DNA of 63,763 nucleotides from an uncultured Porphyromonadaceae bacterium. GTDB taxonomy: Bacteria; Bacteroidota; Bacteroidia; Bacteroidales; Muribaculaceae. Location of the stretch: NCBI GenBank assembly GCA_947073495.1, contig CAMTMX010000007.1, forward strand, positions 1 through 63,763, in the 5' to 3' direction. The translations under genes and the position numbers were made by a program. Shown piece after piece: positions 22,449 through 54,057 of the stretch (within the stretch, counting starts at the first letter, position 1; the number at the start of each line of letters is the position of its first letter). The notes under the pieces were generated by a model, which was not told where the DNA came from, made no database searches, and saw nothing but the letters and a program-made list of their open reading frames with translations.

Positions 22449-22471
22449 TGTTTTGAAGTTTTAATAAATGA

Positions 22472-22513
22472 AGAGCCGTTATTCAATTTGGTGTGTATTT
22501 GAATAACGGCTCT
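22472..22513 (-). terminator. Intra-locus hairpin between susD and the glycosidase gene
   Basis: A perfect 15-bp stem (AGAGCCGTTATTCAA at 22472-22486 with 22499-22513) and 12-nt loop lies in the 189-bp gap after susD. It probably attenuates readthrough, keeping susC and susD more abundant than the downstream enzymes. Confidence 0.65.
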
Positions 22514-22637
22514 CCGCTATTTTGAATTGTTGCCTGTAAAAATCTTTTTTACCTTAAGATAAAATACCATAGAAATCCATTAACCTTTGAGCTAACTAAT
22601 ATAACCTAAAAATATGAACACAGGCAAATCAATACGA

Positions 22638-24269
22638 TTAATATCCCGGATTTTGTTCAAGAAGATCGTTTTTGCGACGTTCGTAGTTTGGAATCGGGAG
22701 GAGGTAATCGGCGGCTTTGAAGAGACGGTCTTGAACTTTGAAAATCTCATACTTCTTGGACCCGTCTGCCATTTTTGTAATGTTGATACCATGGAATTCA
22801 CCGCTATCTGTTTGTTCTCCGATTTTCCAGCGACGCACGTCATAGAAGCGGTGCTCCTCGAAGGCGAGCTCCACCTTACGTTCATGCTGAATCTTGGCGA
22901 GAAGGGCATCCCCTGATTCTGTCACGTCGGGAAGGATTGCCGGGTTGCCACCTCTTGCACGTTCGCGCACAAGATTGATATATTGGCGGGCACCGTTTTC
23001 GTCGCCGAGATGAAAAAGAGCTTCTGCATAATTCAGATATATTTCTGCAAGACGGCAGTATACCCAAGGCTGGCTGCCTTTGTCTGACCAACTGTTCTGA
23101 AGGCTTTCATCCATGAATTTACGGATAATGTAGTGGGTTTTTGAATAGTTCCACGCATCGCGACCGAATTCACTGTCGATACCGCCGGTATCACCATCTT
23201 CATCTACCCAGAACTCAACTTCTGTTCCACGGAAGTCCTGACCGTCGCATACGACAGATGCATATAGACGCGGGTCTCTGCCAGCCCATGGGTTTTCAGT
23301 GGCGTTCGCATATATTGATGCATCGGGCATTGAGCCGTCTTCCATCTCATAGCTGTCTACCATCTCCTGAAGCACAGCCGTGCAGGAATATCCACCCCAG
23401 CCGTTGGTGCTGTTATACCAGTCGAACCATGATCCGAATTCAGTGTTGTATAGACGCTGGAAAATAATTTCAGGGCTTTCAGCGTTAAGGAACAACCCTT
23501 TGTAGTCGGGATCAAGAGAATAAATGCCCAGGTCGATCACTTCTTTTGCGGCGTCGGCGGCAGCCTGCCATTTAGAACGGTCGTTTGAAGGATTCCATAA
23601 CGGACTTGCTGCATAAAGGAGCATTCTTGCTTTCATTGCGAGTGCCGCACCTTTGGTTGCCCTGCCGAAATCAGCACCGGTGAATCTGACAGGAAGAAGT
23701 TGCGCAGCTTTTGTGAACTCGCTTACGATGAAGTCTACACAATCTTCATAAGAATCGCGTTTCACCATCATTTCGGGGTCGTCAAGACTGAACAGACGTG
23801 TGATCAAAGGTACACCGCCATAGTTGTTGACAAGCTCCATGTAATAGTAGGCACGGAAGAAAGTAGCCTCACCGATGAGAATGTCTCTTTTGTCCTGACT
23901 GATTGAGTTCAAGTTTTCGAGATTGTTGAAGAATATATTACAGTTTTTGATATAGCTGTAATAGTTTGCCCAGATGTCGAGCGGGCCGAGCTGGTCGGGG
24001 GTCATGCCTCCGGTGTTGATTGTCCAGGGGCCTCCGTAGTTGAAGTTTTCCATAGATTCGTCGCAGCAGAATCTTAGGGAATAGCGGCTCCATCCGTTGC
24101 GGGGACGGGTGTAGTTTATAGTGACGTAGGCTTCAGTCAGGTTTGCATCCTTGAAGATCACGTCTTCGGTATATGAATCGAGCGGCTCCACGTCAAGCAC
24201 GTCGCATGAAGATAGGGTTGCGGCGGTAAGGAGTGCGAACGACACGCTTTTTAATATATGTTTTTTCAT
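22638..24269 (-). CDS. susD: SusD/RagB-type glycan-binding lipoprotein
   Basis: A 543-residue surface lipoprotein, Cys in TLSSCDVLDVEPLD, that caps the SusC channel and binds oligosaccharide. The family course is clear: the EPLDSYTEDVIFKD start, TPR-like helices such as IGEATFFRAYYYMELVNNYGGVPL, and a C-terminus with ARQYINLVRERARGG, IQHERKVELAFEEHRFYDVRRWKIGE and LLPIPNYERRKND. It lies 13 bp after susC, the invariant order. The bound sugar cannot be read from sequence. Confidence 0.95.
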   Translation of the reverse strand: MKKHILKSVSFALLTAATLSSCDVLDVEPLDSYTEDVIFKDANLTEAYVTINYTRPRNGWSRYSLRFCCDESMENFNYGGPWTINTGGMTPDQLGPLDIWANYYSYIKNCNIFFNNLENLNSISQDKRDILIGEATFFRAYYYMELVNNYGGVPLITRLFSLDDPEMMVKRDSYEDCVDFIVSEFTKAAQLLPVRFTGADFGRATKGAALAMKARMLLYAASPLWNPSNDRSKWQAAADAAKEVIDLGIYSLDPDYKGLFLNAESPEIIFQRLYNTEFGSWFDWYNSTNGWGGYSCTAVLQEMVDSYEMEDGSMPDASIYANATENPWAGRDPRLYASVVCDGQDFRGTEVEFWVDEDGDTGGIDSEFGRDAWNYSKTHYIIRKFMDESLQNSWSDKGSQPWVYCRLAEIYLNYAEALFHLGDENGARQYINLVRERARGGNPAILPDVTESGDALLAKIQHERKVELAFEEHRFYDVRRWKIGEQTDSGEFHGINITKMADGSKKYEIFKVQDRLFKAADYLLPIPNYERRKNDLLEQNPGY

Positions 24270-24282
24270 GATTGGAGATTCT

Positions 24283-27200
24283 TTAGAAGGTGAGGTTTAA
24301 GCTGAAAGTATAGGTGCGGGCTATAGGATAGCTCTGACCTGTGGAAGTGGCGGTTGACTCAGGGTCTTGAATTTTCACTTTGTCGATTGTGAATAGGTTA
24401 GTGCCGGTGAGTGCAAAACGCACACCCTGAAGTTTAATCTTATTGAGTACGCTCTGGGGAAGGTTGTAAGCGATCTCAAGATTCTTAAGTCTCAGGAAAG
24501 ACGCGTTGTAGAGCCAGAAGTCACACCAACGGGTGTTTTCGTAATCATCCTTGTCGAATGCCCGGGGATATTTTGCATTTGGAGTTTCCTCTGCAGAGAT
24601 CCAACGGTTGTTGTAGAAATCCTTGTCGAGGTTGTAGGAATATGGCACGATCATCTGCTCTGCGCAGCCCTGGCCGGTCCAAAGCATACCTAATTCAAGT
24701 CCTTTCCATTCAGCTCCCAGATTGATGCCATAGACAAGACGGGGCACATTCCCGTATTTGCTGTAGATACGGTCATTGTCTGTGATCTGTCCGTCGCCAT
24801 CGATATCGACATATTTGATATCACCAGGTTGTGCGTTTGCAAAGTGAGGAGTTGAGTTTACTTCATCCCAGGTCTGATATATGCCGTCGGTCTTATACAT
24901 CAGCCAAGAATCGAGAGAATGACCGGTGCGACGCTGCCATTCCGGAACGTTGGCTGCCTCATCGAAAAATTTGATTTTATTTTGGGTATAAGTGAGGTTC
25001 CCGGAAATGTTATAAGTCACGTTCCCAACCTTGTTGCGGTGGCTGAGCATAAGCTCGAAGCCCTGATTGCTGACTTCGCCGATATTCTGGTCCGGAAGAG
25101 TAAGACCGGTGTAGTAAGGCACGGATGCCTGTTTCGGAGTAAGGATATCAGTACGGTTCTGATAGAAATATTCTGCAGTGAATCCGAGAAGGCCGTTCCA
25201 GAAAGTACCATCTACGGCAATGTTTCTTGAGTCAACCTTTTCCCAGGTTATGTCTGGATTTCCGATACGGCCCGGTACAAAACCTTTGTTGATGTTGGGT
25301 GTACTGCCGAGGATCGCACCGTTCTGCATGTTGTAGACACTGAGATATTGGAAGGAAGCCACCCGGTCGTTACCGAGTTTACCCCATGAAGCGCGGAGCT
25401 TGAGCTCGTTGACAACGTCTGCAAGATTCTCCATGAAGTTCTCTTGACTAATTCTCCAACCGACGGATACGCCCGGGAATGTACCCCAACGTTTTGAAGG
25501 GGCGAAGTTCATTGAACCGTCGCGTCTGATGGTGAACTCCACGAGATATTTGTCCATGTAGGCGTAGTTGAAACGCCCGAATATATTCTGGCGGGCAGAT
25601 ACGTATCCCACACCTCCGTTTGTTTTTTCCTTATCGGCGCCGAAGTCAAGATAATCAGGCTTGTCGCTAAGATAATATCCTCTCCATGCCCAGAATCCTT
25701 CACCTTGGTATTTGCTCTGCTCGTATGCCACGAAAGCGCCTACGCGATGGTCGCCGAAAGAACGGTCATAAGCGAGCTTTAAAAGGTAGGAAGTTGTGGA
25801 ATAGTTATTGTTGGTGTTCTGTAGGGAAATGTTGTTACCGTTCATGTTGGTGGTCTTCTTCACATATTCCCCGGTTGCGGAATTATAGTCGTAAGTGTCC
25901 CACACGTCCTGAAGCTGTTTCTGATCGCGCACGCGGTAGTCTATCGCAGCATATCCGGAGAAGGAAAGTCCTTCCGTGATCCAGGGCATTTGGAGGTCGA
26001 ACGAAAATTTAGTGTCGATAAACGTATCGTTGATTTTGTTGTAGCCGGTTTCATCACCTTTTACGAGAATTGCAAGGTTGTTGCCGTTTGCAAGTCCCGG
26101 TCCGGGAAGACCGTTGGGATAGTAATCGTAGAGCCAAGGATATGCCATGAACGCTTCCCAGAATATGGAACTTGTGGGGATCACAGAATTTCTGCGTTGC
26201 TCTCTGCGGGCGGCAAGATCCACACCGATCTTCAGATCTTTGAAAAGATTGATGTCAAGGTTTGAACGTACCTGATATGTCTGGAAGTTAAGTTTGGTGT
26301 CACGATAGTTCGGCTTCTGATAGGTATAGTCTCCGGAAACGTAATACCTCACATTGTCATTTCCTCCTTTAATGTTAAGGGAATGGCGAGTGGAAGGAGC
26401 CGCTTTTGTGAATATCGCATCCATCCAGTCGGTGTCGCCATATTGGTCGCGGTTGATAGTGCCGTCAAGATATCCGTTTTTGATATTCTCATAAAGAGGT
26501 GCTTGTCCGTTGCCTTTGCGGATCTCGTCAGTCCAGGTCATGTTTTCATAGGCATTCATGAGGTTTGGAGTCCTGGTGTTCTGAGAAAGGGTGAATGAAC
26601 CGCTGTATGAGATAGAAGGCTTGCCGTTGTTACCTCTTTTTGTCGTAACGAGGATTACGCCGTTTGCAGCCTGAGCTCCATAAATTGCGGCTGACGCATC
26701 TTTCAATACGTTGATAGATTCGATGTCGTTAGGGTTAAGACGCTCAAGCCCTTCACGGTTTGCAACACCATCGATGATGATGAGAGGGGAGTTGTTGTTG
26801 AGTGTGCCTTTGCCGCGGATGAAAATATCAGAGTAGTCGTTGCCCGGTTCTCCCGTACGGTTGTTTGCCACCACACCAGGGAGTTTGCCTGCGAATGTGT
26901 TGGTTACGTTTGCCACACCGGTTGTCTTCAATTCGCTACCCTTTACAGTGGAAACAGAACCTGTGACAGATGCTTTTTTCTGCACGCCATAACCAACCAC
27001 CACCACTTCTTCGAGAGCTTGAGTGTCTTCAGCGAGAAGAACTTCAAGATTGTCTATGGCTTTAGTCTCAAACTGGGTATATCCCACATAAGAGAATATT
27101 AGAGTGGACCCTTTGGGAGCATTGATTGTATAATTGCCGTCGATATCAGTAACTGTGCCAGTGGTTGTGCCTTTTACCGAGACAGACACTCCAATGAGGG

Positions 27201-27372
27201 GTTCTCGGGTAGTCTTATCGAGTACAGAACCTTTGATTGTCTGAGCCTGAGGGGCTCTTTCTGCCGTCAATGAGGAAGCGGAAGTCGGGATAGCCGATAG
27301 GGTTAATGGAAATGCGAACAGGGAAAGTGAAAGCCCCAGTGCATACCATCGGTTTCCGAAAGTAATTTTCAT
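24283..27372 (-). CDS. susC: SusC/RagA-type TonB-dependent outer-membrane transporter
   Basis: A 1029-residue outer-membrane glycan importer. After the signal peptide comes a carboxypeptidase-regulatory-like domain (about 46-115, IKGSVLDKTTREPLIGVSVSVKG). Next come a TonB-box-like region (EDTQALEEVVVVGYGVQ) and a plug with SDIFIRGKGTLNNNSPLIIIDGV and IESINVLKDASAAIYGAQAANG. The 22-strand barrel ends TYTFSLNLTF. It sits between a GH97 gene (32 bp upstream) and susD, an unusual but known arrangement with the enzyme first. Confidence 0.96.
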   Translation of the reverse strand: MKITFGNRWYALGLSLSLFAFPLTLSAIPTSASSLTAERAPQAQTIKGSVLDKTTREPLIGVSVSVKGTTTGTVTDIDGNYTINAPKGSTLIFSYVGYTQFETKAIDNLEVLLAEDTQALEEVVVVGYGVQKKASVTGSVSTVKGSELKTTGVANVTNTFAGKLPGVVANNRTGEPGNDYSDIFIRGKGTLNNNSPLIIIDGVANREGLERLNPNDIESINVLKDASAAIYGAQAANGVILVTTKRGNNGKPSISYSGSFTLSQNTRTPNLMNAYENMTWTDEIRKGNGQAPLYENIKNGYLDGTINRDQYGDTDWMDAIFTKAAPSTRHSLNIKGGNDNVRYYVSGDYTYQKPNYRDTKLNFQTYQVRSNLDINLFKDLKIGVDLAARREQRRNSVIPTSSIFWEAFMAYPWLYDYYPNGLPGPGLANGNNLAILVKGDETGYNKINDTFIDTKFSFDLQMPWITEGLSFSGYAAIDYRVRDQKQLQDVWDTYDYNSATGEYVKKTTNMNGNNISLQNTNNNYSTTSYLLKLAYDRSFGDHRVGAFVAYEQSKYQGEGFWAWRGYYLSDKPDYLDFGADKEKTNGGVGYVSARQNIFGRFNYAYMDKYLVEFTIRRDGSMNFAPSKRWGTFPGVSVGWRISQENFMENLADVVNELKLRASWGKLGNDRVASFQYLSVYNMQNGAILGSTPNINKGFVPGRIGNPDITWEKVDSRNIAVDGTFWNGLLGFTAEYFYQNRTDILTPKQASVPYYTGLTLPDQNIGEVSNQGFELMLSHRNKVGNVTYNISGNLTYTQNKIKFFDEAANVPEWQRRTGHSLDSWLMYKTDGIYQTWDEVNSTPHFANAQPGDIKYVDIDGDGQITDNDRIYSKYGNVPRLVYGINLGAEWKGLELGMLWTGQGCAEQMIVPYSYNLDKDFYNNRWISAEETPNAKYPRAFDKDDYENTRWCDFWLYNASFLRLKNLEIAYNLPQSVLNKIKLQGVRFALTGTNLFTIDKVKIQDPESTATSTGQSYPIARTYTFSLNLTF

Positions 27373-27404
27373 GATGTTTATGTTTTTGGTTAATATGTGG
27401 TTAA

Positions 27405-29339
27405 CTATTTTATGATGGCTGCAAATCCACCTCCGTCATACATGGAGACGGTGATTTTGTCACCGGCTTTTACCTTTTTGGTCCGGAGTGCAAAATCTTC
27501 TGCATTCAAGTCTACGTTTACACCATCTTCCCAGGATGTCATGGTTTTATTGCCTTTGATGAAATCAAGTGGAATTTCGAATGTGCCGCCCTTTTCACCT
27601 GTCATGCCTCCGATATACCATGTGTCGCCGTTTCTGCGAGCCACGATAATATGTTCGCCGATTGCTGCCGAGATAACCTTTGTCTCATCCCATACTACAG
27701 GCACTTGAGAAAGGAACTGCATGCATTCCGGTTCTTTTTCATATGCGGTGGGAGTGTCGGCAAGCATCTGGAGCGGACTTTCATAAACCACATACATGCC
27801 GAGTTGGTGACAGCGGGTGCCGACAGAGGCAGGGAGATTGAAGTTGATCTGATGATCTTTTTCATGAAGGTTTTTCATAGCCCCCGGGGTATAGTCCATA
27901 GGTCCGGCAACCATTCTGGTGAAAGGGAGAGTGACATTGTGTTTCGGAGTCACGAAACTGCCCCATTTATGGTTTTCGAGTCCGGCTACACCTTCCGATG
28001 TCAGCACATTGGGGAAAGTATGGATCCATCCGGTAGGTTTATACGCTCCGTGGAAGTCTACAAGCATTTTGTGGTCTACCGCCTTGCGAGCCACCTCATA
28101 GTAGAAATCCACCATTTCCTGGTCGTCACGGTTCATGAAGTCCATCTTGATACCTTTCACACCCCATTCATTAAACTTGTCGAATGCTTCATCAATCTTT
28201 TCACGGAACGGAGCCCATGACACCCAAAGAATAAGGTCTACATTTTTCTTTTTGCCGTATGCGACAAGTTCAGGGATATTGATTTCCGGGATAGTTTTGG
28301 TCACATCCCAAGGTTCGGACCATCCGTCGTCGATCACCACATACTCGATATTGTTGCGTGATGCAAAATCAATGTAATATTTGTAAGTGTCATTGTTGAC
28401 ACCACATTTGAAATCCACTCCGGTAAGCACGAGAGCGTTATACCAGTCCCAGGCGATCTTTCCGGGTTTCACCCAGCTGAAATCGCCCTTAGACTCGGGC
28501 GCGAGTTTGTAGATGAGCTGGTTTGTGATGAGATTGGCATCATTGTCGGTCACAATCATTGCACGCCATGGGAAATTGCGAGTTCCGTTTACTTTTGCTA
28601 TATAGTCCGCACGTTTTGTCGGGAAAATCTGGCGGTCGTCTGTGCGATAGTCTTCAAGTGATACAGCTGCATATTTTCCTGCAAGTTCATGTTTCCCTTG
28701 CTTGCGGAGAAACATTCCGGGATAGCTTTCCAGATCTGATTCGCTGATAAACACTCTCACCTTGTCGTCAGGCTTCAGCAAGATCGGGGTGCTGCAGAAT
28801 TTATCAGTGGCTATTTCTGAAAGTTTCATCGGTTTGAATATAGGCTGCTGTGCGCTGAGCATAGTGCGTTCCTCTGGAAAAAGAGTGTCGAAATCAGCGG
28901 GGAAGCAGAAGGTGGCTTCCTCATTAAGAACTTTTAATGAGTCAGGGAAATCAGTGTGGAAGCGATATGCAAGACCATCGTCGTAGACACGGAATTCAAT
29001 GGCATATCCGTCAGAAAGCAGTTTCATGCTATTGTAGTTGTCGCGTATGGTGGCGCTTTTCTGTCGGATTATTGGTTTTATCGTATTGTCGTGTGAATCT
29101 TTTACCACATCTTTCACTTTCATGTTTCTTCCGATTGTGGCGCCATTGTCGAAAGTCATAGAGATGGGAGATGGATCCAATATTCTTTTACCGTCAAAAT
29201 CTACTTGATAAGTTGTGTTGCCACCGGTGTTGACAGTCACGGAAAGACGGTTGTCGGGCGATTGAACGGAGTATTTTTCTGCTGACATTGAAAAGAAGCA
29301 TATCAGCGAAAAGCCCGTTGCCAGGAGTTTTGAGTTCAT
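27405..29339 (-). CDS. GH97 glycoside hydrolase, first gene of the PUL
   Basis: A 644-residue secreted GH97 paralogue. ATG 29339 gives a signal peptide (MNSKLLATGFSLICFFSMSA). TIM-barrel signatures are KIAWDWYNALVLTGVDF, IEYVVIDDGW, VKGIKMDFMNRDDQEMVDF and GPMDYTPGAM. It shares the order and motifs of the GH97 at 18439-20406 but has diverged well beyond a recent duplication. The Asp of MDFMNRDD again fits the retaining subgroup. It is the promoter-proximal gene, 32 bp before susC. Two GH97 enzymes in one locus suggest a glycan with two alpha-linked side groups, or enzymes in different compartments. Confidence 0.88.
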   Translation of the reverse strand: MNSKLLATGFSLICFFSMSAEKYSVQSPDNRLSVTVNTGGNTTYQVDFDGKRILDPSPISMTFDNGATIGRNMKVKDVVKDSHDNTIKPIIRQKSATIRDNYNSMKLLSDGYAIEFRVYDDGLAYRFHTDFPDSLKVLNEEATFCFPADFDTLFPEERTMLSAQQPIFKPMKLSEIATDKFCSTPILLKPDDKVRVFISESDLESYPGMFLRKQGKHELAGKYAAVSLEDYRTDDRQIFPTKRADYIAKVNGTRNFPWRAMIVTDNDANLITNQLIYKLAPESKGDFSWVKPGKIAWDWYNALVLTGVDFKCGVNNDTYKYYIDFASRNNIEYVVIDDGWSEPWDVTKTIPEINIPELVAYGKKKNVDLILWVSWAPFREKIDEAFDKFNEWGVKGIKMDFMNRDDQEMVDFYYEVARKAVDHKMLVDFHGAYKPTGWIHTFPNVLTSEGVAGLENHKWGSFVTPKHNVTLPFTRMVAGPMDYTPGAMKNLHEKDHQINFNLPASVGTRCHQLGMYVVYESPLQMLADTPTAYEKEPECMQFLSQVPVVWDETKVISAAIGEHIIVARRNGDTWYIGGMTGEKGGTFEIPLDFIKGNKTMTSWEDGVNVDLNAEDFALRTKKVKAGDKITVSMYDGGGFAAIIK

Positions 29340-29368
29340 GATGTTGATGATTTTTGTGAGTTTTGCCG

Positions 29369-29376
29369 CAAAGTTA
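29369..29376 (-). promoter_or_regulatory. Candidate -7 box of the PUL operon
   Basis: The minus strand reads TAACTTTG, a TAnnTTTG match, 29 bp before the GH97 start. There is no clear TTTG -33 element, as expected where an activator such as the HTCS is needed. Confidence 0.5.
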
Positions 29377-29453
29377 TGGATAAGTGTAAACACGGCAGAC
29401 CCGGTGAATCCAAAAAGAGAGCCGGATAGTATTTTGATGAGCCCGATAGTAAA

Positions 29454-32453: not shown

Positions 32454-35400
32454 TTATCTTGGTCTTCCTTCAAACGGAAAGATGTCCGGTTCAGGTAAAA
32501 TATTTTTCAAGGAATCGCATTCTTTTGCCATTTTCTCAAGGCGAGGAATTATGGATATCAGCCTTCGGGATGAGTTCGAGACAGTGTGCCGTCTCCATAT
32601 GGGTAGGGAGGCATAATAATTTTTCCATTGCCTTGATTCTTTCAGCATATTATCGATTGAGTATGAGGCTTGTTGCGCTTGCGGCTTATCTTTGGTTCTT
32701 TTGGCGATATCAATCTTAAGACGAGCAAATTCGATACCTTCATGGAATGTAGAGTCGGCAAGTGTGAACGATCCTGCCGGTATGCGGCTGTAAGGGTAGA
32801 GGAATTCAAGAAGGAATAAAATAGATTTGGCGTCTTTGCAATAGCCCGCTTCAAAAAACTGGCGTGCTGCCAAGATTATTTCTCCCCGTTGCCTTCTGAC
32901 TTGATCAGCGATTACAGGATCTGTCCGAAGAGTAGGGATAGTATCTCTGTTTGGGAGAAATAATGGTGGTTCCAGATTTTTTGCCAATGTTGCAAGATGA
33001 ATGGAGTCTGTCATTCCAGGTACATACGCATCGACAAAAGGAAGCCGGCGGGTCGACGATTTAAAAGGGCGGTAAAAGTCTGACGATATCGCTGTGTGGA
33101 AATAGACGTTGCGGGGAGAATCGGATTCGGCATTGGTTGCCAGCATATCGAGAAGCATCAGTTTGCGAAACGGAAGCATGGATGACCCGTTGGCAAAATC
33201 TTTAAGATCGATTGTCAATGTGTCATTATCGTTTTTTCCGGGCAATGTCACTATCCGGTTGTGTAATGTAGGGGTTTTCTCTCCGGAGGTGTAAAGATTT
33301 CTTAAGGCATCGATCGCCGGTATTGCCGTGGTGTCGGCATCAGGCGCGATCCGTGTATAGGAGTAAGCACCATATGCAATGTCGGCGGGAGTGGCTGTAA
33401 ACGCTACGCCCCGTTCTCCTTGTTTCATAAGGTTGACCACATATTCGGGTATGGCAAAATAAGACACGTCGATCACAGTGTGTTGTCTGCCGGTGTTCAT
33501 CACCTCTTGTGCATACCACATTGGGAAAGTGAAATTATCCCCTTGTGTGAAAATGATTGCAGGAGTTTCAGTCAGCAACAGATTGGAAGCGTAGTCGAAT
33601 GGCTCGGAACGACCTGTCCGGTCATGGTCATCCCAATTTTCATGAAGCATAATGATGGGAATAGCCACAGCGACAACGGCAGTTGACATGATTGCGATCG
33701 TTTCGTTCACTTTATACTTAACCATCCACAAGCATATGGCGGTGATGCCGAATCCTATCCATATTGAAAATGCCATGTAGGATCCGAGAAACGAATAATC
33801 ACGTTCACGGGGTTCTCCCGGCAATTGGTTCAGATATACAACGATTGCCAACCCTGTCATAATGAACAAGAGAGTTATAACAGCCAATGCCTGATGTCCG
33901 GACTTTCCTGAACAAAACAGAAAAATTATGCCTGTTATCCCAAGTATAAACGGCAAGCAATAATAGACGTTGTGTCCGTTGTTGTGCGACGATGCGTTTG
34001 CGGGCATAAGCGTCTGATCTCCGAGCATTGCATTGTCGATAAAAGGGAATCCTGTGATAAAATTCCCATGGTCGATCTCTCCGGTGGAGGGAAAATCGTT
34101 CTGTCTTCCCATAAAATTCCAGAGCAGATAGCGGAAATACATATATCCCACTTGATAGGAAAGGAAGAAATTGAGATTTTGCAGGTAAGTGGGCCGATAT
34201 GAGAAACTCTTTTCCCGGTTGCCGGAAGGGGATATTTTCCCGACCGGTCTCCCGAGAGTGTCGATTGCTTCCGAGATTTCAATTTTGTCCATCGACTCTT
34301 TCGTCATCCCTACCCATGATTCGTAACTTTCAATATCAGATTGAGATGTGCCGGTGATACGGGGGAAAAACATGTTGAGCTCCGGGGTTGTGACTCTTGA
34401 AAAAGAATAATCCGAAAGGATATAACCTTCTCTCTTTTTGATGATTTCTGAATTGTTGGCTGAATCTTTTTCGGATAGCATTCTGCTTCTGTAGCTCAAC
34501 TTGGCGTCGGTCATTACGGGAGCATATTTTGCTTTCCCTTTTTTCAGACGATACAGGGAATATCCGGGCAGATTGTTCCCGGGCGTCCATGTCTCTTCAT
34601 ACATAGGTCTGCTATATGGGGTCGCTCCATAAAACAGGGGAGTGGATCCATATTGGTCGCGGGCTATATAGGAGGATAGGGCGAAAATGTCGGTGGGTGC
34701 CCCTTCGTTCATAGGAGGAGAGGCATAACCCCGGATAAGGATGAGTGCGAATGATGAATACCCCAATAATATGAATGCCAAGGAGAATATACATGAAATG
34801 ACCTTTGCCCTGTCCCAATGCAAACAATAGACTACTGCGACACTGGAAATTGTCGACAATATGGCGGCAATTATAAGATCGCCTTTGAATACAAAGATTC
34901 CGGAAAGCCATATAAACGCAGACATTGAAATTGCTGTGACGCATCTTGCCCCATTGGTCGCGACTGCTACAGCGATAACCGCAGCAATTACAAGCATAAT
35001 AAGATAGATGTAAACTCCGGAGAAATATGGCATACCTAATGAATTGACTGCACGCAGTTCAAATGTCTGCATCCACGACAGCGTGCCGTTCATCATGCCG
35101 ATCAATATCAGGATGATGATTATAAACGATATGAAAATTGCTATCCATGCTCTCAGGGCGCTTTTCCCATATGGATATTTCCTAAAAACATATATGAGGG
35201 AAAGAACGGGAATGCAAAGCAGATTAAGCTGATGAACGCCGATGGATAGTCCGGTGATATACGCAATCAGAATCAAAAGCCGCTTCCTGTGGGCATGATT
35301 GTATGTTTTTGCCCACTTGATCATCAGCCATATCACAAGCGATGTCAGAAATGCCGACATGGCATACACTTCCGCCTCGACCGCAGAAAACCATGCGGAA

Positions 35401-35825
35401 TCGCAAAATGCAAACGTCATTCCGGCGGTAACAGCCGCGATGGAAGATATCAGAGTAACAAAAAAAGTCGGTTGATTATGTTTGTGCAGGTATTTTGTTG
35501 CTACATAAAAAGATATGGAAAAAGTGATTTTTGTAAGTAAAAAAGCGGCGAGAGCCATGAATAGGCTGCTGCATAGCCCGATTACAAGTGCATGATATTC
35601 TGCGGAAAACGGAATTGTGGCAAATCTCATGGCGAGCATCCAGAAAGGATTGCCTGGAGGATGGCCGATTTCAAGCAAAGAGGCGCATGTGATGTATTCG
35701 GGGCAGTCCCAGAAAGAGGCGGAACGATCAACTGTGACGCCATATGTCAACAATGCGGTAATGAAGACAATACTGCTTAAGCCGGTCTCTGTTATACGAT
35801 CAATATTTTTGCCTATTATGCTCAT
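32454..35825 (-). CDS. DUF2723 multi-pass membrane protein (GT-C-like)
   Basis: A 1123-residue membrane protein of the DUF2723/TMEM260 family, related to protein O-mannosyltransferases. The family start is complete: FITALLTYGVTVDRSASFWDCPEYITCASLLEIGHPPGNPF. About a dozen membrane helices fill residues 15-780 (SIWIGFGITAICLWM among the last), and a soluble C-terminal domain follows. Bacteroidales relatives are linked to protein glycosylation, but the function of this one is unproven. It starts 6 bp after the SDR gene, so it shares a transcript with the steroid-type cluster. Confidence 0.88.
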   Translation of the reverse strand: MSIIGKNIDRITETGLSSIVFITALLTYGVTVDRSASFWDCPEYITCASLLEIGHPPGNPFWMLAMRFATIPFSAEYHALVIGLCSSLFMALAAFLLTKITFSISFYVATKYLHKHNQPTFFVTLISSIAAVTAGMTFAFCDSAWFSAVEAEVYAMSAFLTSLVIWLMIKWAKTYNHAHRKRLLILIAYITGLSIGVHQLNLLCIPVLSLIYVFRKYPYGKSALRAWIAIFISFIIIILILIGMMNGTLSWMQTFELRAVNSLGMPYFSGVYIYLIMLVIAAVIAVAVATNGARCVTAISMSAFIWLSGIFVFKGDLIIAAILSTISSVAVVYCLHWDRAKVISCIFSLAFILLGYSSFALILIRGYASPPMNEGAPTDIFALSSYIARDQYGSTPLFYGATPYSRPMYEETWTPGNNLPGYSLYRLKKGKAKYAPVMTDAKLSYRSRMLSEKDSANNSEIIKKREGYILSDYSFSRVTTPELNMFFPRITGTSQSDIESYESWVGMTKESMDKIEISEAIDTLGRPVGKISPSGNREKSFSYRPTYLQNLNFFLSYQVGYMYFRYLLWNFMGRQNDFPSTGEIDHGNFITGFPFIDNAMLGDQTLMPANASSHNNGHNVYYCLPFILGITGIIFLFCSGKSGHQALAVITLLFIMTGLAIVVYLNQLPGEPRERDYSFLGSYMAFSIWIGFGITAICLWMVKYKVNETIAIMSTAVVAVAIPIIMLHENWDDHDRTGRSEPFDYASNLLLTETPAIIFTQGDNFTFPMWYAQEVMNTGRQHTVIDVSYFAIPEYVVNLMKQGERGVAFTATPADIAYGAYSYTRIAPDADTTAIPAIDALRNLYTSGEKTPTLHNRIVTLPGKNDNDTLTIDLKDFANGSSMLPFRKLMLLDMLATNAESDSPRNVYFHTAISSDFYRPFKSSTRRLPFVDAYVPGMTDSIHLATLAKNLEPPLFLPNRDTIPTLRTDPVIADQVRRQRGEIILAARQFFEAGYCKDAKSILFLLEFLYPYSRIPAGSFTLADSTFHEGIEFARLKIDIAKRTKDKPQAQQASYSIDNMLKESRQWKNYYASLPIWRRHTVSNSSRRLISIIPRLEKMAKECDSLKNILPEPDIFPFEGRPR

Positions 35826-35831
35826 GGATTG

Positions 35832-36593
35832 TTAAAGATCAAGTTTCTTTTTGTTTCTGGTTTTCCCCAGAGGCGAGAGGAATATATATCCGGATTTGGG
35901 AGATTCCAGCGCTCTGACAGAAGTTTTTGCGGCTGTCGACGGTTTCAGACAGAAAGGACGGAAGAAGATGTCGGTCAGTCTGTCGAACCATCTGCCCATG
36001 GAGAGCATTGGGGTGTCGACCACGCCCGGATCGGCGCAATTGATTCTAATGCTTCTTTTCTGAAGGTCTTTGTCGGATGCGATTGCGGCTGCGTAGCGTG
36101 TGATAAGTTTTTTCGAGAGAGCGTATGTCTTCAGCCTTCCGAATTTTGATTCGGGGATATCGTCATTTAACCGTTGGAAAGGATACCACCGACGGGTGGC
36201 TGACGTGGTGAAGACAACAGCTCCGCCGTCGTTGATCCTGTCGATAAGAAGTTCCGTAAGCAGACGGGTGTTGTGATAGTTCACATTCAGGGTGTCTTCG
36301 TGACCGTCACCGTCAAGGATATACTTGCCGTTCATGACCCCGGCATTATTTATGATCGCGTCGAGACATTCGCCTGAAAGATGGTTTGACGCCCTGCTTA
36401 CAGAAGAGGCATCAGACAGGTCAATAATAACTATCCCCGGACGCTTGCCATAAATAAATTCTATCTCTTCCGCAAGGATTTCGCCTTTTTTTTTCGAACG
36501 GCATCCCAAAATGATGTCGTGCCCCTTGCTTGCGAGCAGGCAAGCGATTTCTTTCCCTATAGCTCCCGTGGCTCCTGTGATTAATATTTTCAT
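35832..36593 (-). CDS. Short-chain dehydrogenase (retinol-dehydrogenase-like)
   Basis: A 253-residue NAD(P)-dependent oxidoreductase. Cofactor motif TGATGAIG (7-14), NNAG (about 90) and the catalytic Ser and Tyr-x3-Lys (FTTSATRRW, YALSKK) are intact. Its start overlaps the stop of the neighbouring SDR gene by 4 bp, so they are translationally coupled. Beside a 5-alpha-reductase homologue and a flavin enoyl reductase, a hydroxysteroid dehydrogenase role is a reasonable guess. Substrate is unproven. Confidence 0.88.
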   Translation of the reverse strand: MKILITGATGAIGKEIACLLASKGHDIILGCRSKKKGEILAEEIEFIYGKRPGIVIIDLSDASSVSRASNHLSGECLDAIINNAGVMNGKYILDGDGHEDTLNVNYHNTRLLTELLIDRINDGGAVVFTTSATRRWYPFQRLNDDIPESKFGRLKTYALSKKLITRYAAAIASDKDLQKRSIRINCADPGVVDTPMLSMGRWFDRLTDIFFRPFCLKPSTAAKTSVRALESPKSGYIFLSPLGKTRNKKKLDL

Positions 36594-37399
36594 CTGACAA
36601 TCCCTTTGTCGAGCAAGCGATGCTTAACCATCATTCTCACCGGTGTAGGTGTGACCCCCACAAAGAATATGGAAAGACGGTTGAGCCATCCGTTGACATA
36701 TTGTTTTTTCTTTCGTAACATACGGTCGATCGCCTTGCGTGCAAATTTCTCCGGAGTGTCGAGCACGCCGATCCTAACGGCAAGTCCTTTAAGGTTTTCA
36801 GGAAGACCGAAAAGATTTGTCGCTATTCCTCCGGGACATGCCACGGTCACACCGACTCCATAATCTTTCATTTCATAATGGAGCGCCCGGGTGAAGACCC
36901 TTATGTATGCTTTTGTTGAAGCATACATGGCGAGCCCGGGCATTGGCATCCAGCAAGACATCGACGACATGTTGAGAATCCATCCCGACCCCCTGTTTGC
37001 CCTTTTTCGTGCAAACCAGCGCGAAAGGGTAGTGACCGCGCGGATATGGAGGTCGATAAATGTGTCGATTTTTTTCTGTTTTGTCTCTACGACCGGAGAG
37101 AATGAGAATATTCCGGCATTATTGATGAGTATGTCGGGGTCAAGACCGGATTCTTCGCAAAAGGCATTAATGTTTTTAGTAATTCCGGGAAGTGTGAGAT
37201 CGAGAGTGAGGATGAATATGTAGGATCCTGTGCTTTTCGAGATTTTGTCTGCGGTTTTGAGAAGAAGTTCTTCATTGATATCGACAAGAATAACTTCGCA
37301 TCCTCTTTTTGCCAGTTCCATTGCGAATCTCGAACCGATGCCTCCGGTGGCTCCGGTGACAATGGCGCAATGCCCTGAAAGATCGTCAAATTTTCCCAT
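36590..37399 (-). CDS. Short-chain dehydrogenase (17-beta-HSD12-like)
   Basis: A 269-residue SDR with TGATGGIG, NNAGIFSF, a catalytic Ser in LNMSSMSCW and YASTKAY. The C-terminal hydrophobic stretch and course resemble membrane-associated hydroxysteroid dehydrogenases of the HSD17B12/3 type. I chose ATG 37399 (MGKFDDLSGHCAIVTG), which overlaps the upstream reductase gene by 14 bp; ATG 37417 is possible. It is coupled to genes on both sides. In the known Odoribacteraceae-type bile acid cluster an SDR acts as 3-beta-hydroxysteroid dehydrogenase; whether this one does is inference. Confidence 0.88.
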   Translation of the reverse strand: MGKFDDLSGHCAIVTGATGGIGSRFAMELAKRGCEVILVDINEELLLKTADKISKSTGSYIFILTLDLTLPGITKNINAFCEESGLDPDILINNAGIFSFSPVVETKQKKIDTFIDLHIRAVTTLSRWFARKRANRGSGWILNMSSMSCWMPMPGLAMYASTKAYIRVFTRALHYEMKDYGVGVTVACPGGIATNLFGLPENLKGLAVRIGVLDTPEKFARKAIDRMLRKKKQYVNGWLNRLSIFFVGVTPTPVRMMVKHRLLDKGIVR

Positions 37400-38609
37400 T
37401 TCTTCTCTTGATGTCATCGATTTCTTTAAGAATAGCCGACGGGAGGTTGTCGAGATGCTTATGGCATGCCATCTCTTTTGAATACATGCGGGCGATGCAA
37501 TAATTGACGTGGTCGCATCCACACCGGTGGCATTCATCGTGCTTCATCCGGTTTACGAAATCAGGTTCGTTTAGAAGAGCCCTTCCCATCTGGACAAATT
37601 CAAAGCCCTCATCCATTATGGCGTCTGCGTTTTTGCGGCTCACCACGCCGCCGACGTAGACGAGCGGGAGCTTCAACTCCTGCCGGAATATCCGTGCGTC
37701 TTCAAGGAAATATAGTTCTTTGAAGGGAGATTTTGGTATCATGAATTTACCAAACCATCTGACCCCGTATTTTAGCCACAGCTGCGGCATATAATGGGTC
37801 ATGGTGTAGATCGGCATCTCTCCGCGCATCACATACATAGGGGCTTTGCTTACAAATCCTCCGGAAAGCACGATTGCATGGGCTCCTAAGTTTTCTAATT
37901 CCTTAGCCACTTCAAGACATCCGTCGATGTCGAGTCCCCCCTTGAATCCGTCGCGCATGTTGGTTTTTACAAGCACCCCCATGTCTGATCCGGCAGCTTT
38001 CATCACCTCTTCCATACATTCCTGCATGAATCGCATGCGGTTTTTAAGGTCTCCTCCATATTCGTCGTGCCTGTGGTTGGTGTAGGGGGAAAGGAACTGA
38101 GAGATAAGGTAGCCGTGACCGGCATGCACTTCCACGCAGTCGAACCCGGCATCGCGTGCCGTGCGGACCGCATCACCGAAATTGCGTGCCATCTTCTTGA
38201 GCTCATCCTTACGCAGCCCCCTTACGATAGTCGGGGAATAAAGATTGAAACCGGAAGATGCCCCTACGGGTGTTGAACCTGCAGTGGAACGATGGGTCAT
38301 ATTTCCGCAATGTCCTATCTGTATTGATGCTTTTGCCCCGTAGCCGTGAATGCCGTCGGTTATTTCTCTTAAAGCCGGAATTATCTCGGGTCGGAGCCAT
38401 AGCTGGGTCTTGAAAGATAGCGCCGAGCGGCATATCCCGGCATATGCAAGAGTGGTCATTCCCACTCCCCCCTTGGCAACGCTAAAGTGATAATCTCGTA
38501 GCATTGGTGTGGGGTTGTTGTCTTTTCCCATTCCTTCGAATGCCGCAGACCGGATTGTGCGGTTGCGGAGGGTGACGGGTCCGATGTTGCCGGGTGTAAA
38601 GAGGTTCAT
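37386..38609 (-). CDS. Old-yellow-enzyme-type flavin reductase, candidate steroid 5-beta-reductase
   Basis: A 407-residue FMN TIM-barrel reductase of the NADH:flavin oxidoreductase/2,4-dienoyl-CoA reductase family. It begins LFTPGNIGPVTLRNRTIRSA. The barrel carries QIGHCGNMTHRS, DAGFDCVEVHAGHGYLISQFLSP, NRMRF and a phosphate-binding end VQMGRALLNEPDFV. A Cys-rich tail (CHRCGCDHVNYC) fits an iron-sulfur site. It lacks the second NADH domain of full-length (640-residue) dienoyl-CoA reductases and BaiCD/BaiH. A reductase of this family is the 5-beta-reductase of the isoallo-bile-acid gene set. It lies 41 bp after the 5-alpha-reductase homologue. Confidence 0.85.
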   Translation of the reverse strand: MNLFTPGNIGPVTLRNRTIRSAAFEGMGKDNNPTPMLRDYHFSVAKGGVGMTTLAYAGICRSALSFKTQLWLRPEIIPALREITDGIHGYGAKASIQIGHCGNMTHRSTAGSTPVGASSGFNLYSPTIVRGLRKDELKKMARNFGDAVRTARDAGFDCVEVHAGHGYLISQFLSPYTNHRHDEYGGDLKNRMRFMQECMEEVMKAAGSDMGVLVKTNMRDGFKGGLDIDGCLEVAKELENLGAHAIVLSGGFVSKAPMYVMRGEMPIYTMTHYMPQLWLKYGVRWFGKFMIPKSPFKELYFLEDARIFRQELKLPLVYVGGVVSRKNADAIMDEGFEFVQMGRALLNEPDFVNRMKHDECHRCGCDHVNYCIARMYSKEMACHKHLDNLPSAILKEIDDIKRRNGKI

Positions 38610-38650
38610 ATTGTTGAGATTTGTTGCAATGAATTAAGAAAAGAGAGTGG

Positions 38651-39430
38651 TCAATATATAAATGGAATTATATATCTCCGATGGAGGGAGGTGAATTCTG
38701 AGCCGAATTCTTTCGTATATCTTTTTGAAAGGGATCGTGCACGGGGTGCAAGATTGGCAAAAGTCCAGAGAGCGAAAACGGCACCGGGCACCGACCAGGT
38801 GAGTATTGCAAATCCTATCCATTCGGTGAGTTCCCCAAAATAGTTGCCTGCCGTCACGAACCTGTACATACCTTTCCGGGGTATGTAGTGGCACGTGTCG
38901 CCGGGCTTTCTCAGATTCCGTATCACGTGGTCGGAATGAATGTTGATCGCCATTCCGCAGATGAAAACCATGGTTCCAAGGATAAAAAGGGGAGATGAAA
39001 GCCAGGAGTCTGCATATCTGTCGGGAGTTGCTATATAAAACAGCCAGCCCCCAATCATATAAGCGTTGATAGTATTGAAAATCATTCCCATAATTACAAT
39101 CGCCCATGGCATCCTGCTCTTGCCTCGCATGAGGAATGGAAATATGAACGTGCGCTGGAAATAATGGAACTCAAACAATCCTGCCATGATGCATGGCGCA
39201 GGTTGGGTTGCCCTGTCGCTGAATATCCATAGAAGAGCCATGCATATAAATGCCGGAGCTTCCATCACCACCCATCCCGCACGGTTGTTGACCGAAGGGC
39301 CCCATTTTGTGGAATATGTCATTCCATAGGCGGCTTCAATGCGATGAAGCGCAATGAAAACGATGACGGCAAGCGCTGCCATTGTGCCCACCACGGCGTT
39401 GAATATTATCGGATTAAAAATTGTTTCCAT
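38651..39430 (-). CDS. Steroid 5-alpha-reductase homologue
   Basis: A 259-residue membrane enzyme with about seven helices, the same length as human SRD5A1/2. From memory of the human proteins, the match is striking: RAGWVVMEAPAF, FHYFQRTFIFPFLMRGK, INIHSDHVIRNLRKPGDT, TAGNYFGELTEWIGFAILTWSVPGAVFALWTF and the C-terminal IIPFIY. The Glu in MEAPAF and Tyr in HYFQRTF correspond to human active-site Glu57 and Tyr91; Gln56 is Met here. It would reduce a 4-ene-3-ketosteroid to the 5-alpha form with NADPH. It is the first gene of the run, preceded by a palindromic operator candidate. Confidence 0.88.
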   Translation of the reverse strand: METIFNPIIFNAVVGTMAALAVIVFIALHRIEAAYGMTYSTKWGPSVNNRAGWVVMEAPAFICMALLWIFSDRATQPAPCIMAGLFEFHYFQRTFIFPFLMRGKSRMPWAIVIMGMIFNTINAYMIGGWLFYIATPDRYADSWLSSPLFILGTMVFICGMAINIHSDHVIRNLRKPGDTCHYIPRKGMYRFVTAGNYFGELTEWIGFAILTWSVPGAVFALWTFANLAPRARSLSKRYTKEFGSEFTSLHRRYIIPFIY

Positions 39431-39455
39431 GCTGACAAAATTAACGAAAATTATT

Positions 39456-39484
39456 TAAGTGAACAATATCGTGGCGTTCACTTA
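39456..39484. promoter_or_regulatory. Palindromic operator candidate before the steroid-type cluster
   Basis: TAAGTGAAC (39456-39464) and its exact complement GTTCACTTA (39476-39484) are 11 bp apart, so half-site centres lie 20 bp, two helical turns, apart. The site is 26 bp before the 5-alpha-reductase start in the divergent region. It resembles a dimeric repressor site of TetR-like size. No regulator gene is adjacent. Confidence 0.5.
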
Positions 39485-39545
39485 GGATAAATAAAGTTAA
39501 AAAAAGTGATATTAGTATATAAAACATGACTATTTGGAAAACATG

Positions 39546-39576
39546 TTTGAGCAATGGCTTATTTTCATTAATTTTG
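39546..39576 (+). promoter_or_regulatory. Bacteroides-type promoter of the ABC exporter gene
   Basis: TTTG (39546-39549), 19 bp, then TAATTTTG (39569-39576): an exact match to the TTTG/TAnnTTTG consensus at the usual spacing. The predicted start is near 39583, giving a leader of about 54 nt. Confidence 0.8.
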
Positions 39577-39636
39577 CAGAAACAAAACGCGGTGTCGGAT
39601 GGCATGTAATCAAGACATCGGCTTCAACCTATCGGA

Positions 39637-50326: not shown

Positions 50327-51550
50327 TCATATTGATTCCGCGCGGGTCTTTTCATAGGCGTCATATCCTTTGAGTATGGCAGGACGCACCACCCAGCGCT
50401 GCACACAATAGGCTCCGGTAAGATAGATTGCGGCAAGAATCCATAGGTTGATATATGCCGTGCTCACCTGTGCCAGCGACGCGCCGTTAGTGTTCATTCG
50501 GATGAACCCTTCCACACCCCATGTCGCCGGCACGCATCCGCTAAGGAATTTCCAGAAGGGAGCCATAGCGTAGCGTGGCCACGTGAGACCGGAAAGAAAA
50601 AGAAATACCACCGACGTCACCACCCACAGGACAAATACGGATTCCCTTTCCCATACAATCCCTTGGAAAATGAATCCCAGCCCGAGACATGCAAGCACCA
50701 TCGGGACGAGGAACATTATTATCTCGGAAAACTGTCCCGCCATCGGGAATGCAAACATAAGTGGCACGTAGTGCACCAGATAAATGATGGGAAGTGCGAG
50801 AATCGTGATATAGCAGAGCATCTGTCCCGCCATGGTCATGAGTATGCTCGGCTGCTCGTTGTAGGGATCATAGCCGATAAGTATTGGTCGTTCACGCTTG
50901 GCGCCTCCCGCCATTCCGGAGGCGAGGATGATACATTGATGAAGTATCAATATAAGGACCCCGGGCATTATAAACGAATCAAATCCATTTTCAATGTTTC
51001 CCATAGAGATATTTTCAATGGGCATAATGTCGCCGGAGGCTATAGTCCCGGCGAGGGGAGCAACCTCATTGATCTTTTCAGCAAGGATTTCCGCCCCCAT
51101 TTCTTGAGACACTCCGGTGGTTGCCACAAGGAATCCCCTATAGCGCAAAAGCAGACTTGCGTCGCAATACATTATGGCATTTGCCTGTTCCCCTCTTCCG
51201 AGGTGCTTCCCGAAACCGTCGGGTATTTCAAGTATGGCGAAACATTTGTGGGAGTTCATGGCATGGCGTGCCTCGGCGAGGTCGGAGGCATACCCGATCA
51301 CCCATGCTTCCTGAGTGGCGTCAAGATTTCTCACCAGTTCACGGCTGATCGACGAGCGGTCGTTGTCTACCACCACCATTTTCACGTCTCTCACCACCTC
51401 CGGATTGTAGATCAAGGAATATATCACAGGATATGCAAGCGGGAGAAACAGGAAGAACAGTACTATCCCAGGGTCTTTGATGACAATCTTGAACTCACGA
51501 CAATAGACGTCAAAGAGTTGCCTTATAATTGATTTATTTTGTTTCCGCAT
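50327..51550 (-). CDS. ABC-2-type transporter permease (YhhJ-like), second
   Basis: A 407-residue permease: one N-terminal membrane helix (IVLFFLFLPLAYPVIYSLIY), a large periplasmic domain (about 45-185) with DNDRSSISRELVRNLDATQEAWV, and five C-terminal helices. This is the DUF/ABC2_membrane_3 layout of HlyD-linked efflux permeases. It lies 28 bp after a homologous permease. No ATPase gene accompanies the pair. Confidence 0.88.
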   Translation of the reverse strand: MRKQNKSIIRQLFDVYCREFKIVIKDPGIVLFFLFLPLAYPVIYSLIYNPEVVRDVKMVVVDNDRSSISRELVRNLDATQEAWVIGYASDLAEARHAMNSHKCFAILEIPDGFGKHLGRGEQANAIMYCDASLLLRYRGFLVATTGVSQEMGAEILAEKINEVAPLAGTIASGDIMPIENISMGNIENGFDSFIMPGVLILILHQCIILASGMAGGAKRERPILIGYDPYNEQPSILMTMAGQMLCYITILALPIIYLVHYVPLMFAFPMAGQFSEIIMFLVPMVLACLGLGFIFQGIVWERESVFVLWVVTSVVFLFLSGLTWPRYAMAPFWKFLSGCVPATWGVEGFIRMNTNGASLAQVSTAYINLWILAAIYLTGAYCVQRWVVRPAILKGYDAYEKTRAESI

Positions 51551-51578
51551 AGCAATTTTCTTTTTGGGGTAACCGTCC

Positions 51579-52745
51579 CTAAGGTGCGTATACCGGTTTC
51601 ACCATAGCTCTTTTTATTTTCCAGAGCATTGTCAGCGGTAGAAGCATGAAGATGATATATGCCACAAACCATATTCTGGAATAATAGATATGTATCCCAT
51701 TGAGAGCCTGGTCGATATATATGAGAAAGTTGTATCTGATGGGGAGAATCCAGCTGAAAATCCCTATTGAGGGATACATGCTTTCCACCGGGAAAGAGAA
51801 CGCGGCTATCGAGAAGGAGAGTATTCCCATAAGGGCGCTTATCGACAGCGAGAGCCTTAGGTTGGGGAAGAGTCCGAAGAAGAAGAGCGCCATCCCCTGG
51901 CAGGCGAAAACGAACATCATTTCCGATACTGTCATCCAGAACCAGGACCCGTGCATGGGATAACCGTTGATCTTATATAGCCACGACTCCATGAAGAAAG
52001 CTATCACAAGCCAGATGATTGTCTGTGGAAGCAGTTTGGCAGCGAGTGCTTTCACGATTGAACCGTCTGCCATGGCAAGCAGCTTACGAGAGGTGCCGTA
52101 TTTTATTTCCTGTCCGAGACTGAAACACGTCACGAGCCATATCATGAGTTGAAGCACGCAGGGAATGAAAGAGTTGCAAAGGTAGACAGCATAGTTTAGC
52201 CCCGGATTGTGGATGGCACGAGCCTGGATGTTGACAGGGAGCAGGAGAGGGGAGATCACGTTTTCAGACACCCCCGCCGATTCAAGCACGTTCATCGCAA
52301 TTCCCGCTTTTGTGTAGAGCGCGGTGGTCTTGAAGGTCTTGAAGAGAAGGCTTGCAGGCACGAAATATGTCATGTTGGTATAGAACGTGATCACCGGTTT
52401 ACGTCCAGCAAGAAGATCTTGCTGGTAATTTTCAGGGATAAGGAAATAGCCGAAAATTTCGCCTTGCTGCATTTTGTGGCGTGCCTCGGTGAAACTGTTG
52501 CAGTTCTCCACGAGGTCAACCATCTGCATCCCGCCGAGCTTTTGAGTTACAGATCGCGATAGGGAAGATCCGTCTTTATCCACCATGGCTGCCGGAACTT
52601 TCATAGGAAGCCCTTCGTCCATCAGGCTCGATAGAAAAAGGAAGCAGAAGAGCGGCAGGATGAAAAACGCCCCCCAATATATGGGTCGTCTCACAATCTG
52701 GAGCACACTCCTGACGAATATGGCTTTGAATCCTGTCGGCTTCAT
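51579..52745 (-). CDS. ABC-2-type transporter permease (YhhJ-like), first
   Basis: A 388-residue permease paralogous to its neighbour: first helix IYWGAFFILPLFCFLFLSSLM, periplasmic domain with DKDGSSLSRSVTQKLGGMQM, and a C-terminal bundle. The two probably form a heterodimeric channel. The gene is 111 bp after the HlyD gene; telomere-like TTTAGGG units fill part of the gap. Confidence 0.88.
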   Translation of the reverse strand: MKPTGFKAIFVRSVLQIVRRPIYWGAFFILPLFCFLFLSSLMDEGLPMKVPAAMVDKDGSSLSRSVTQKLGGMQMVDLVENCNSFTEARHKMQQGEIFGYFLIPENYQQDLLAGRKPVITFYTNMTYFVPASLLFKTFKTTALYTKAGIAMNVLESAGVSENVISPLLLPVNIQARAIHNPGLNYAVYLCNSFIPCVLQLMIWLVTCFSLGQEIKYGTSRKLLAMADGSIVKALAAKLLPQTIIWLVIAFFMESWLYKINGYPMHGSWFWMTVSEMMFVFACQGMALFFFGLFPNLRLSLSISALMGILSFSIAAFSFPVESMYPSIGIFSWILPIRYNFLIYIDQALNGIHIYYSRIWFVAYIIFMLLPLTMLWKIKRAMVKPVYAP

Positions 52746-52750
52746 ATTTG

Positions 52751-52790
52751 GTTTGGGGTTTAGGGTTTAGAGTTGAGAGTTTAGGGTTTA
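52751..52790. repeat. TTTAGGG telomere-like short array
   Basis: GGTTTAGGG-type units, four in imperfect order, in the gap between the HlyD and permease genes; matches the array at 41635-41665. Confidence 0.7.
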
Positions 52791-52856
52791 GAATCCGGGT
52801 TGCACGGTTCACATTATTCTTAAACCATAAACTATAAACCATACGTGAACTTTAAA

Positions 52857-53909: not shown

Positions 53910-53932
53910 ACTATATATGGTTAAAGGTTTCG

Positions 53933-54050
53933 ATAATTCATAATTCATAATCACCATCTTAAGTGGTGCATAATCAATTATCCAATATCAATTATACATT
54001 ATGCATTGTGAATTATGCATTAATTTGTGAATTATGCATTAAGAATTCAT
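53933..54050. repeat. AT-rich low-complexity repeat
   Basis: Runs of AATTATGCATT-like units, including two exact copies of TGAATTATGCATTAA at 54009-54023 and 54028-54042, fill the gap between tolC and hlyD. Confidence 0.75.
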
Positions 54051-54057
54051 TAAAGTT

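Follow-up and report, generated by a model that had tools for sequence, protein, structure and literature searches.

The window analysed here is a stretch of 63,763 nucleotides of DNA from an uncultured Porphyromonadaceae bacterium (GenBank assembly GCA_947073495.1, contig CAMTMX010000007.1, positions 1 to 63,763 of the forward strand), which GTDB places in the Muribaculaceae. The list of open reading frames contains four minus-strand genes lying head to tail at positions 35832–39430, and all four encoded proteins score above the Pfam cut-offs for their families. In the direction of transcription they are as follows.

38651..39430, minus strand: 5AR, an SRD5A-type membrane steroid 5-alpha-reductase homologue of 259 amino acids (PF02544, PDB matches, conserved residues).
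37386..38609, minus strand: OYE, an FMN ene-reductase/dehydrogenase of 407 amino acids and presumed 5-beta-reductase (5BR) for the 3-oxo-5-beta/delta-4 step (PF00724, conserved residues, structural model).
36590..37417, minus strand: SDR1, a short-chain dehydrogenase (SDR) and presumed 3-hydroxysteroid dehydrogenase (HSDH), 3-beta being favoured (PF00106, Ser-Tyr-Lys, AlphaFold model).
35832..36593, minus strand: SDR2, a second SDR of 253 amino acids and presumed hydroxysteroid dehydrogenase, optional in the cluster (PF00106, Ser-Tyr-Lys).

A preliminary description of this DNA had proposed four adjacent, coupled genes in a likely Muribaculaceae genome. Both proposals hold: the genes form an operon in which a gap of 41 nt between 5AR and OYE is followed by overlaps, and the genome's closest relatives, by record title (Muribaculaceae or uncultured Porphyromonadaceae/Bacteroides) and by protein name, indicate that family. 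The SDR1 and SDR2 genes share 4 nt. The local sequence and the relatives place the start of SDR1 at 37417 or 37399, either of which overlaps the stop end of the OYE gene. The mechanically assigned start at 37537, inside the OYE gene, was rejected on the same grounds.

Judged by its sequence, 5AR is a true steroid 5-alpha-reductase homologue, as the same description had suggested. It scores 139 bits against PF02544 (Steroid_dh, cut-off 22.6). As a single sequence it matches a bacterial 5-alpha-reductase (PDB 7c83, 191 bits, aligned residues 13–258) and human SRD5A2 (PDB 7bw1, 147 bits, aligned residues 18–259), so the mammalian and the bacterial enzyme are both homologous to it over nearly the full length. 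With a profile of 25 relatives the scores are 281 bits (7c83) and 216 bits (7bw1), the sole other PDB match at E-values up to 1 being an enoyl-CoA reductase (72 bits). Conservation was assessed in the window and the best 80 of the 419 loci found by a 5AR similarity search; E57, H89, Y90, Q92 and R93 are each kept in 81/81. E57 and Y90 correspond in the alignment to human E57 and Y91, the SRD5A2 residues that hold the steroid 3-ketone. Unlike SRD5A2 and 7c83, the window protein is encoded in an operon, together with an OYE and SDRs. No other PF02544 gene was found in the genome, which is 91% complete, and the 5AR gene adjoins the only PF00724 gene found there, OYE.

The OYE protein scores 185 bits against PF00724. 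With numbering anchored on the catalytic Tyr167, residues H162, H165 and Y167 are each present in all 97 sequences compared (the window protein and 96 relatives); Tyr167 is flanked by G166 in 94/97, and Q171 is found in 97/97. C365, C371 and C382, likewise 97/97, occupy three of the four cysteine positions of an iron-sulphur (Fe-S) cluster. The second position holds cysteine in only three sequences (from loci L105–L107) and valine in the window protein, while all four cysteines are present in 7/7 full-length comparison OYEs. Those seven proteins are 615–676 amino acids long; the 96 relatives, from a set prefiltered to 0.85–1.2 of the query length, reach at most 442. The window protein ends at 407 amino acids with no FAD/NAD(P)H domain, at a stop codon that the SDR1 gene overlaps. 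Residues 1–406 of a structural model align with multi-domain Fe-S OYEs in rows 1–8 of the VIA-align list, but simple OYEs tie with row 8 and take first place by E-value in Foldseek. The barrel is kept, probably together with a cysteine-rich lobe of the Fe-S type, and the FAD/NAD(P)H domain is gone. Trimethylamine dehydrogenase, 2-naphthoyl-CoA reductase and 2,4-dienoyl-CoA reductase are Fe-S OYEs in terms of their cofactors. Unlike the window protein, these enzymes have 660–729 residues, with extra FAD and nucleotide-binding domains. As the window OYE has no pyridine-nucleotide domain, we infer that electrons pass via the Fe-S-type lobe, and the protein, if it bears a cluster, should exchange them with an external partner.

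Both SDRs score above the Pfam cut-off for PF00106 (SDR1 136 bits, SDR2 74.5 bits) and their catalytic residues are intact: S152, Y165 and K169 in 69/69 SDR1 sequences, S131, Y157 and K161 in 23/23 SDR2 sequences. The tied best rows for the AlphaFold model of SDR1 include 7-beta-HSDH and HSD17B13. The 60 best PDB matches listed for the sequence or profile search include no chain named 3-beta-HSDH, which in lists capped in this way shows nothing. Assignment of SDR1 and SDR2 as 3-alpha or 3-beta enzymes by sequence or fold was attempted and failed.

Two structural details of OYE and SDR1 may be recorded here. An aromatic-rich helical stretch is inserted in OYE after residue 254 (254–300), and the C-terminus of SDR1 (residues 244–272) consists of two helices, in the region aligned with HSD17B13. 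Both segments are candidates for docking to the membrane next to 5AR.

The arrangement of the cluster was compared across 120 loci, comprising the 80 found by 5AR similarity and 40 chosen by hand, which include stretches picked for a lone 5AR or OYE; in 12 of the 120 little sequence remains downstream. The order 5AR-OYE-SDR1 is found in 49 loci, 5AR-OYE-SDR1-SDR2 in 26 and 5AR-OYE-SDR2 in three; one locus has two SDR1 genes, and in eight 5AR-OYE is present with no SDR seen. In 17 loci (two of the first 80) OYE has no 5AR beside it, and in 16 (six of the first 80) the stretch contains no OYE. SDR2 is thus optional, being present in 29/87 5AR-OYE clusters, and as SDR1 or SDR2 can each stand alone they may have separate specificities or be partially redundant. 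The order 5AR-OYE-SDR1(-SDR2) recurs in loci whose titles name Muribaculaceae, Heminiphilus faecis and Alistipes, the Alistipes-titled loci L057, L058, L061 and L063 having 5AR-OYE-SDR1. Carriers of the four-gene form include, by their record titles, the isolates Muribaculaceae bacterium Isolate-037 (Harlan) (L003) and Heminiphilus faecis AM35 (L066). The loci L105, L106 and L107, from another family of the order, carry a distant 5AR (38–41% identity) and, about 9 kb away, a distant OYE with all four cluster cysteines.

5AR and OYE are inherited together. Among 147 genomes of the window's family that are at least 90% complete, 5AR is present in 43. OYE matches are found in 47: a close orthologue (at least 65% identity) in 43, and distant OYEs only in the other four. 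The 43 genomes with 5AR and the 43 with a close OYE are identical. The two genes are adjacent and co-oriented in 37/43, 4 kb apart in one, and on different contigs in five, all of genus g18 (genomes G017, G053, G066, G077 and G087; loci L121–L124); in both g18 genomes examined OYE adjoins SDR1. In the mixed genera g1 (both genes in 15/18), g3, g6 and g20, 5AR and OYE are either both present or both absent. The identical distribution, which includes five genomes where the genes are not adjacent, points to a joint function. Because the genomes are related, the 43 co-occurrences are not independent events; several concordant gains or losses of the pair are required.

A draw of 295 genomes from the order, with a strong 5AR defined by at least 46% identity and a strong OYE by at least 52%, gave 40 genomes with a strong 5AR, 47 with a strong OYE (one of them split over two contig ends) and 39 with both. 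Seven genomes in this draw combine a close OYE with a 5AR of only 37–43% identity. In a phylum draw of 296 genomes, which includes few Bacteroidales, close 5AR and OYE were found in none besides the window's own genome, the best others being a 5AR of 42% and an OYE of 36%.

Related gene sets have been described in the same phylum. According to PMC10382948, SRD5A1-like 5AR is widespread in Bacteroidota, its disruption in Parabacteroides merdae leads to the loss of alloLCA derivatives, and the gene shares a cluster with those for a predicted 3-beta-HSDH and for an NADH:flavin oxidoreductase, the latter hypothesised to be the 5BR. Passages of PMC9645264 describe the indirect pathway as 3-alpha-HSDH, 5BR, 5AR and 3-beta-HSDH, and a passage of PMC12789469 lists Alistipes sp. 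under 5-alpha-reductase. The preliminary description had named the window genes as the enzyme set reported for isoallo-bile acid production, and their classes do match the review descriptions for P. merdae, as far as these passages go (PMC10382948, PMC9645264). Compared in this way, the P. merdae/Odoribacteraceae cluster likewise comprises 5AR, NADH:flavin oxidoreductase and predicted 3-beta-HSDH, whereas the window operon lies in Muribaculaceae and has a second SDR. The Firmicutes bile-acid 5-alpha-reductases BaiP/BaiJ would lead to the same outcome presumed for the window 5AR, allo bile acids, but PMC9645264 distinguishes them from the membrane-associated Bacteroidetes enzymes, and the window 5AR is of the membrane type. 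We recognised no paper on a Muribaculaceae 5AR cluster in searches of the open-licence PMC literature, where nearly all papers were judged by their listing, and neither the architecture of the presumed 5BR nor its strict co-inheritance with 5AR was found in the literature passages on this pathway. The operon is best read as a Muribaculaceae member of the known Bacteroidota system for A-ring inversion.

We consider it probable that the operon serves to remodel the A-ring of 3-hydroxy or 3-oxo steroids of host origin, bile acids being the most likely of these, by the Bacteroidota "indirect" isoallo pathway. The overall route would run from 3-oxo-5-beta through delta-4 and 3-oxo-5-alpha to 3-hydroxy-5-alpha steroids. 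An SDR would oxidise the steroid 3-hydroxyl, and OYE would then dehydrogenate the 3-oxo-5-beta steroid to the 3-oxo-delta-4 intermediate, or run in reverse. The membrane 5AR, with NADPH, would reduce delta-4 to the flat 3-oxo-5-alpha product, whose 3-ketone would be reduced by an SDR (SDR1, probably 3-beta) to the isoallo steroid. SDR2 may have the other 3-epimer specificity, allowing a start from ordinary 3-alpha bile acids. Elsewhere in the genome there is a bile-salt-hydrolase homologue, which matches choloylglycine hydrolase 8esl with 543 bits and whose N-terminus looks signal-like by eye.

Several observations weigh against this interpretation. The sequence carries no evidence of substrate, and the bile-salt-hydrolase homologue falls below its NCBIfam cut-off (86 of 350 bits). 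The SDR families are broad, and sugar, lignin-pathway and acyl-ACP dehydrogenases tie with or outrank hydroxysteroid enzymes in the fold lists; of the two possible 3-hydroxysteroid dehydrogenases first proposed, the SDR assignment stands and the catalytic residues are intact, with the correction that SDR2 is not a constant member. Two genomes of the order draw break the pairing, G147 with a 5AR and no close OYE and G391 with an OYE and no 5AR match. Furthermore, among 30 genomes whose best 5AR has 32–43% identity a close OYE is found in seven and an OYE at 38–45% in seven more, so distant 5ARs often occur without this partner. The presumed 5BR scores 185 bits against the BaiCD model NF041087, for which the cut-off is 825, with the best stretch covering profile positions 3–261 of 642, and it has neither published 5-beta-reductase signature. 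These signatures were defined for Firmicutes enzymes in PMC12238238 as N166 with S171 for hormones and Tyr or Ser166 with Glu171 for bile acids; the word fragment 'bacteroid' is absent from the main text of that paper. Assignment of a substrate by these residues therefore failed, the window OYE showing neither state.

The preliminary description had called OYE a flavin reductase of the 5-beta type. It is an OYE-family flavoprotein, but it is not built like BaiCD or ci2350 of Clostridium innocuum. With these Firmicutes proteins it shares the barrel, the catalytic Tyr167 and presumably the 3-oxo-delta-4/5-beta chemistry. It differs in its length (407 amino acids, against the 642 positions of the BaiCD model), in the missing FAD/NAD(P)H domain and in having three cluster cysteines in place of what we take to be a four-cysteine Fe-S motif in BaiCD, with G166/Q171 at the specificity positions. 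On sequence grounds the presumed 5BR thus keeps the barrel and catalytic tyrosine but departs from the characterised 5-beta-reductases in its length, its cysteines, its score against the model and its specificity residues.

The same enzymes might have steroid hormones as their main natural substrates (progesterone, glucocorticoids and androgens delivered in bile), with allopregnanolone isomers and similar 5-alpha-reduced 3-hydroxy steroids as products. The window 5AR is similar to human SRD5A2, an enzyme that acts on hormones. Firmicutes also act on hormones with an OYE and a 3-beta-HSDH, according to PMC12238238. However, the window OYE and its relatives, with their near-invariant G166 and Q171, lack the N166/S171 of the hormone clade (the bile-acid signature is absent too), the genome encodes the bile-salt-hydrolase homologue, bile acids greatly exceed steroid hormones in the gut, and a 5BR beside 5AR is not obviously needed for a hormone role. 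We regard a hormone substrate as rather unlikely.

Dietary or host sterols (cholesterol, phytosterols) or an endogenous terpenoid or sterol-like lipid are a still less probable substrate. Relatives of 5AR at 36–42% identity are found in other lineages of Bacteroidota; in L106 the gene immediately preceding the distant 5AR matches 3Beta_HSD, although it matches the general Epimerase family more strongly. No wider steroid-degradation cluster was evident in L106: apart from this 3Beta_HSD/Epimerase gene, the genes scanned between the distant 5AR and OYE have no evident tie to steroids, and two have no family match. Against a sterol substrate, close 5AR and OYE were unseen in the phylum draw, with its few Bacteroidales, outside the window's own genome, and 5AR is patchy within genera, unlike a core lipid pathway. 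We regard it as very improbable that unrelated enzymes are grouped by chance or serve general detoxification of unsaturated ketones. The OYE and SDR families are broad enough to allow this, but the identical 43/147 distribution, which holds even where the genes are not adjacent, and a gene order conserved across many loci argue against it.

Returning to A-ring inversion by the indirect pathway, a more specific proposal can be made, which we offer tentatively and regard as rather doubtful. The Bacteroidota 5BR may be a distinct, stripped-down class of Fe-S OYE that acts as a steroid dehydrogenase: FMN would take hydrogen from 3-oxo-5-beta steroids, and a three-cysteine cluster, with His367 or an open iron site, would pass electrons to an external acceptor such as electron transfer flavoprotein (ETF). 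5AR would then use NADPH on the flat product, and the pair would form a one-way, redox-driven A-ring inverter. Trimethylamine dehydrogenase passes its electrons to ETF; the window's genome encodes an ETF alpha subunit, so a similar acceptor may be available. The missing electron domain turns the vague label NADH:flavin oxidoreductase into a specific question of redox partner and direction.

In the mouse gut, few bacteria are as abundant as the Muribaculaceae. Provided that the operon functions as proposed, work in mice on isoallo and allo bile acids and on 5-alpha-reduced steroids should therefore include this family beside Parabacteroides and Odoribacter. Because the four-gene form is found in named isolates, the idea is directly testable.

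Two further features adjoin the operon.

32454..35825, minus strand: TMEM260-like membrane protein, a possible operon passenger (PF11028, 166 bits; proximity in relatives).
39431..39636, no strand: intergenic stretch separating the divergent genes for 5AR and an MsbA-type ABC transporter, the likely site of the operon promoter.

The TMEM260-like gene begins 6 nt past SDR2 and a shikimate kinase gene lies close behind, so that the operon may continue into both. In 30/79 loci examined, a relative of this TMEM260-like gene is found on the cluster's strand no more than 1.5 kb away (28 downstream and two upstream). As the MsbA-type transporter gene is divergent, the operon promoter most likely lies within 39431–39636. 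This region includes, at 39456–39484, a perfect 9-bp inverted repeat (TAAGTGAAC / GTTCACTTA, 11-bp spacer) that ends 25 nt short of the 5AR start. The genome has no further exact copy, and the paired motif is found in 0/106 upstream regions of relatives, with a single half-site in 4/106. An operator role was therefore dropped, the repeat being lineage-specific or due to chance.

Elsewhere in the window, positions 12847–29393 contain a polysaccharide utilisation locus with a hybrid two-component regulator, a TonB-receptor/SusD pair and two GH97 glycosidases. At 50327–55488 two ABC-2 permeases, an HlyD-type protein and an outer-membrane efflux protein are encoded in a row, which looks like a tripartite efflux system. 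A MobA/VirD2-type relaxase gene at 4450–6012, near a tRNA-Leu gene (7847–7931), hints at an integrated mobile element.

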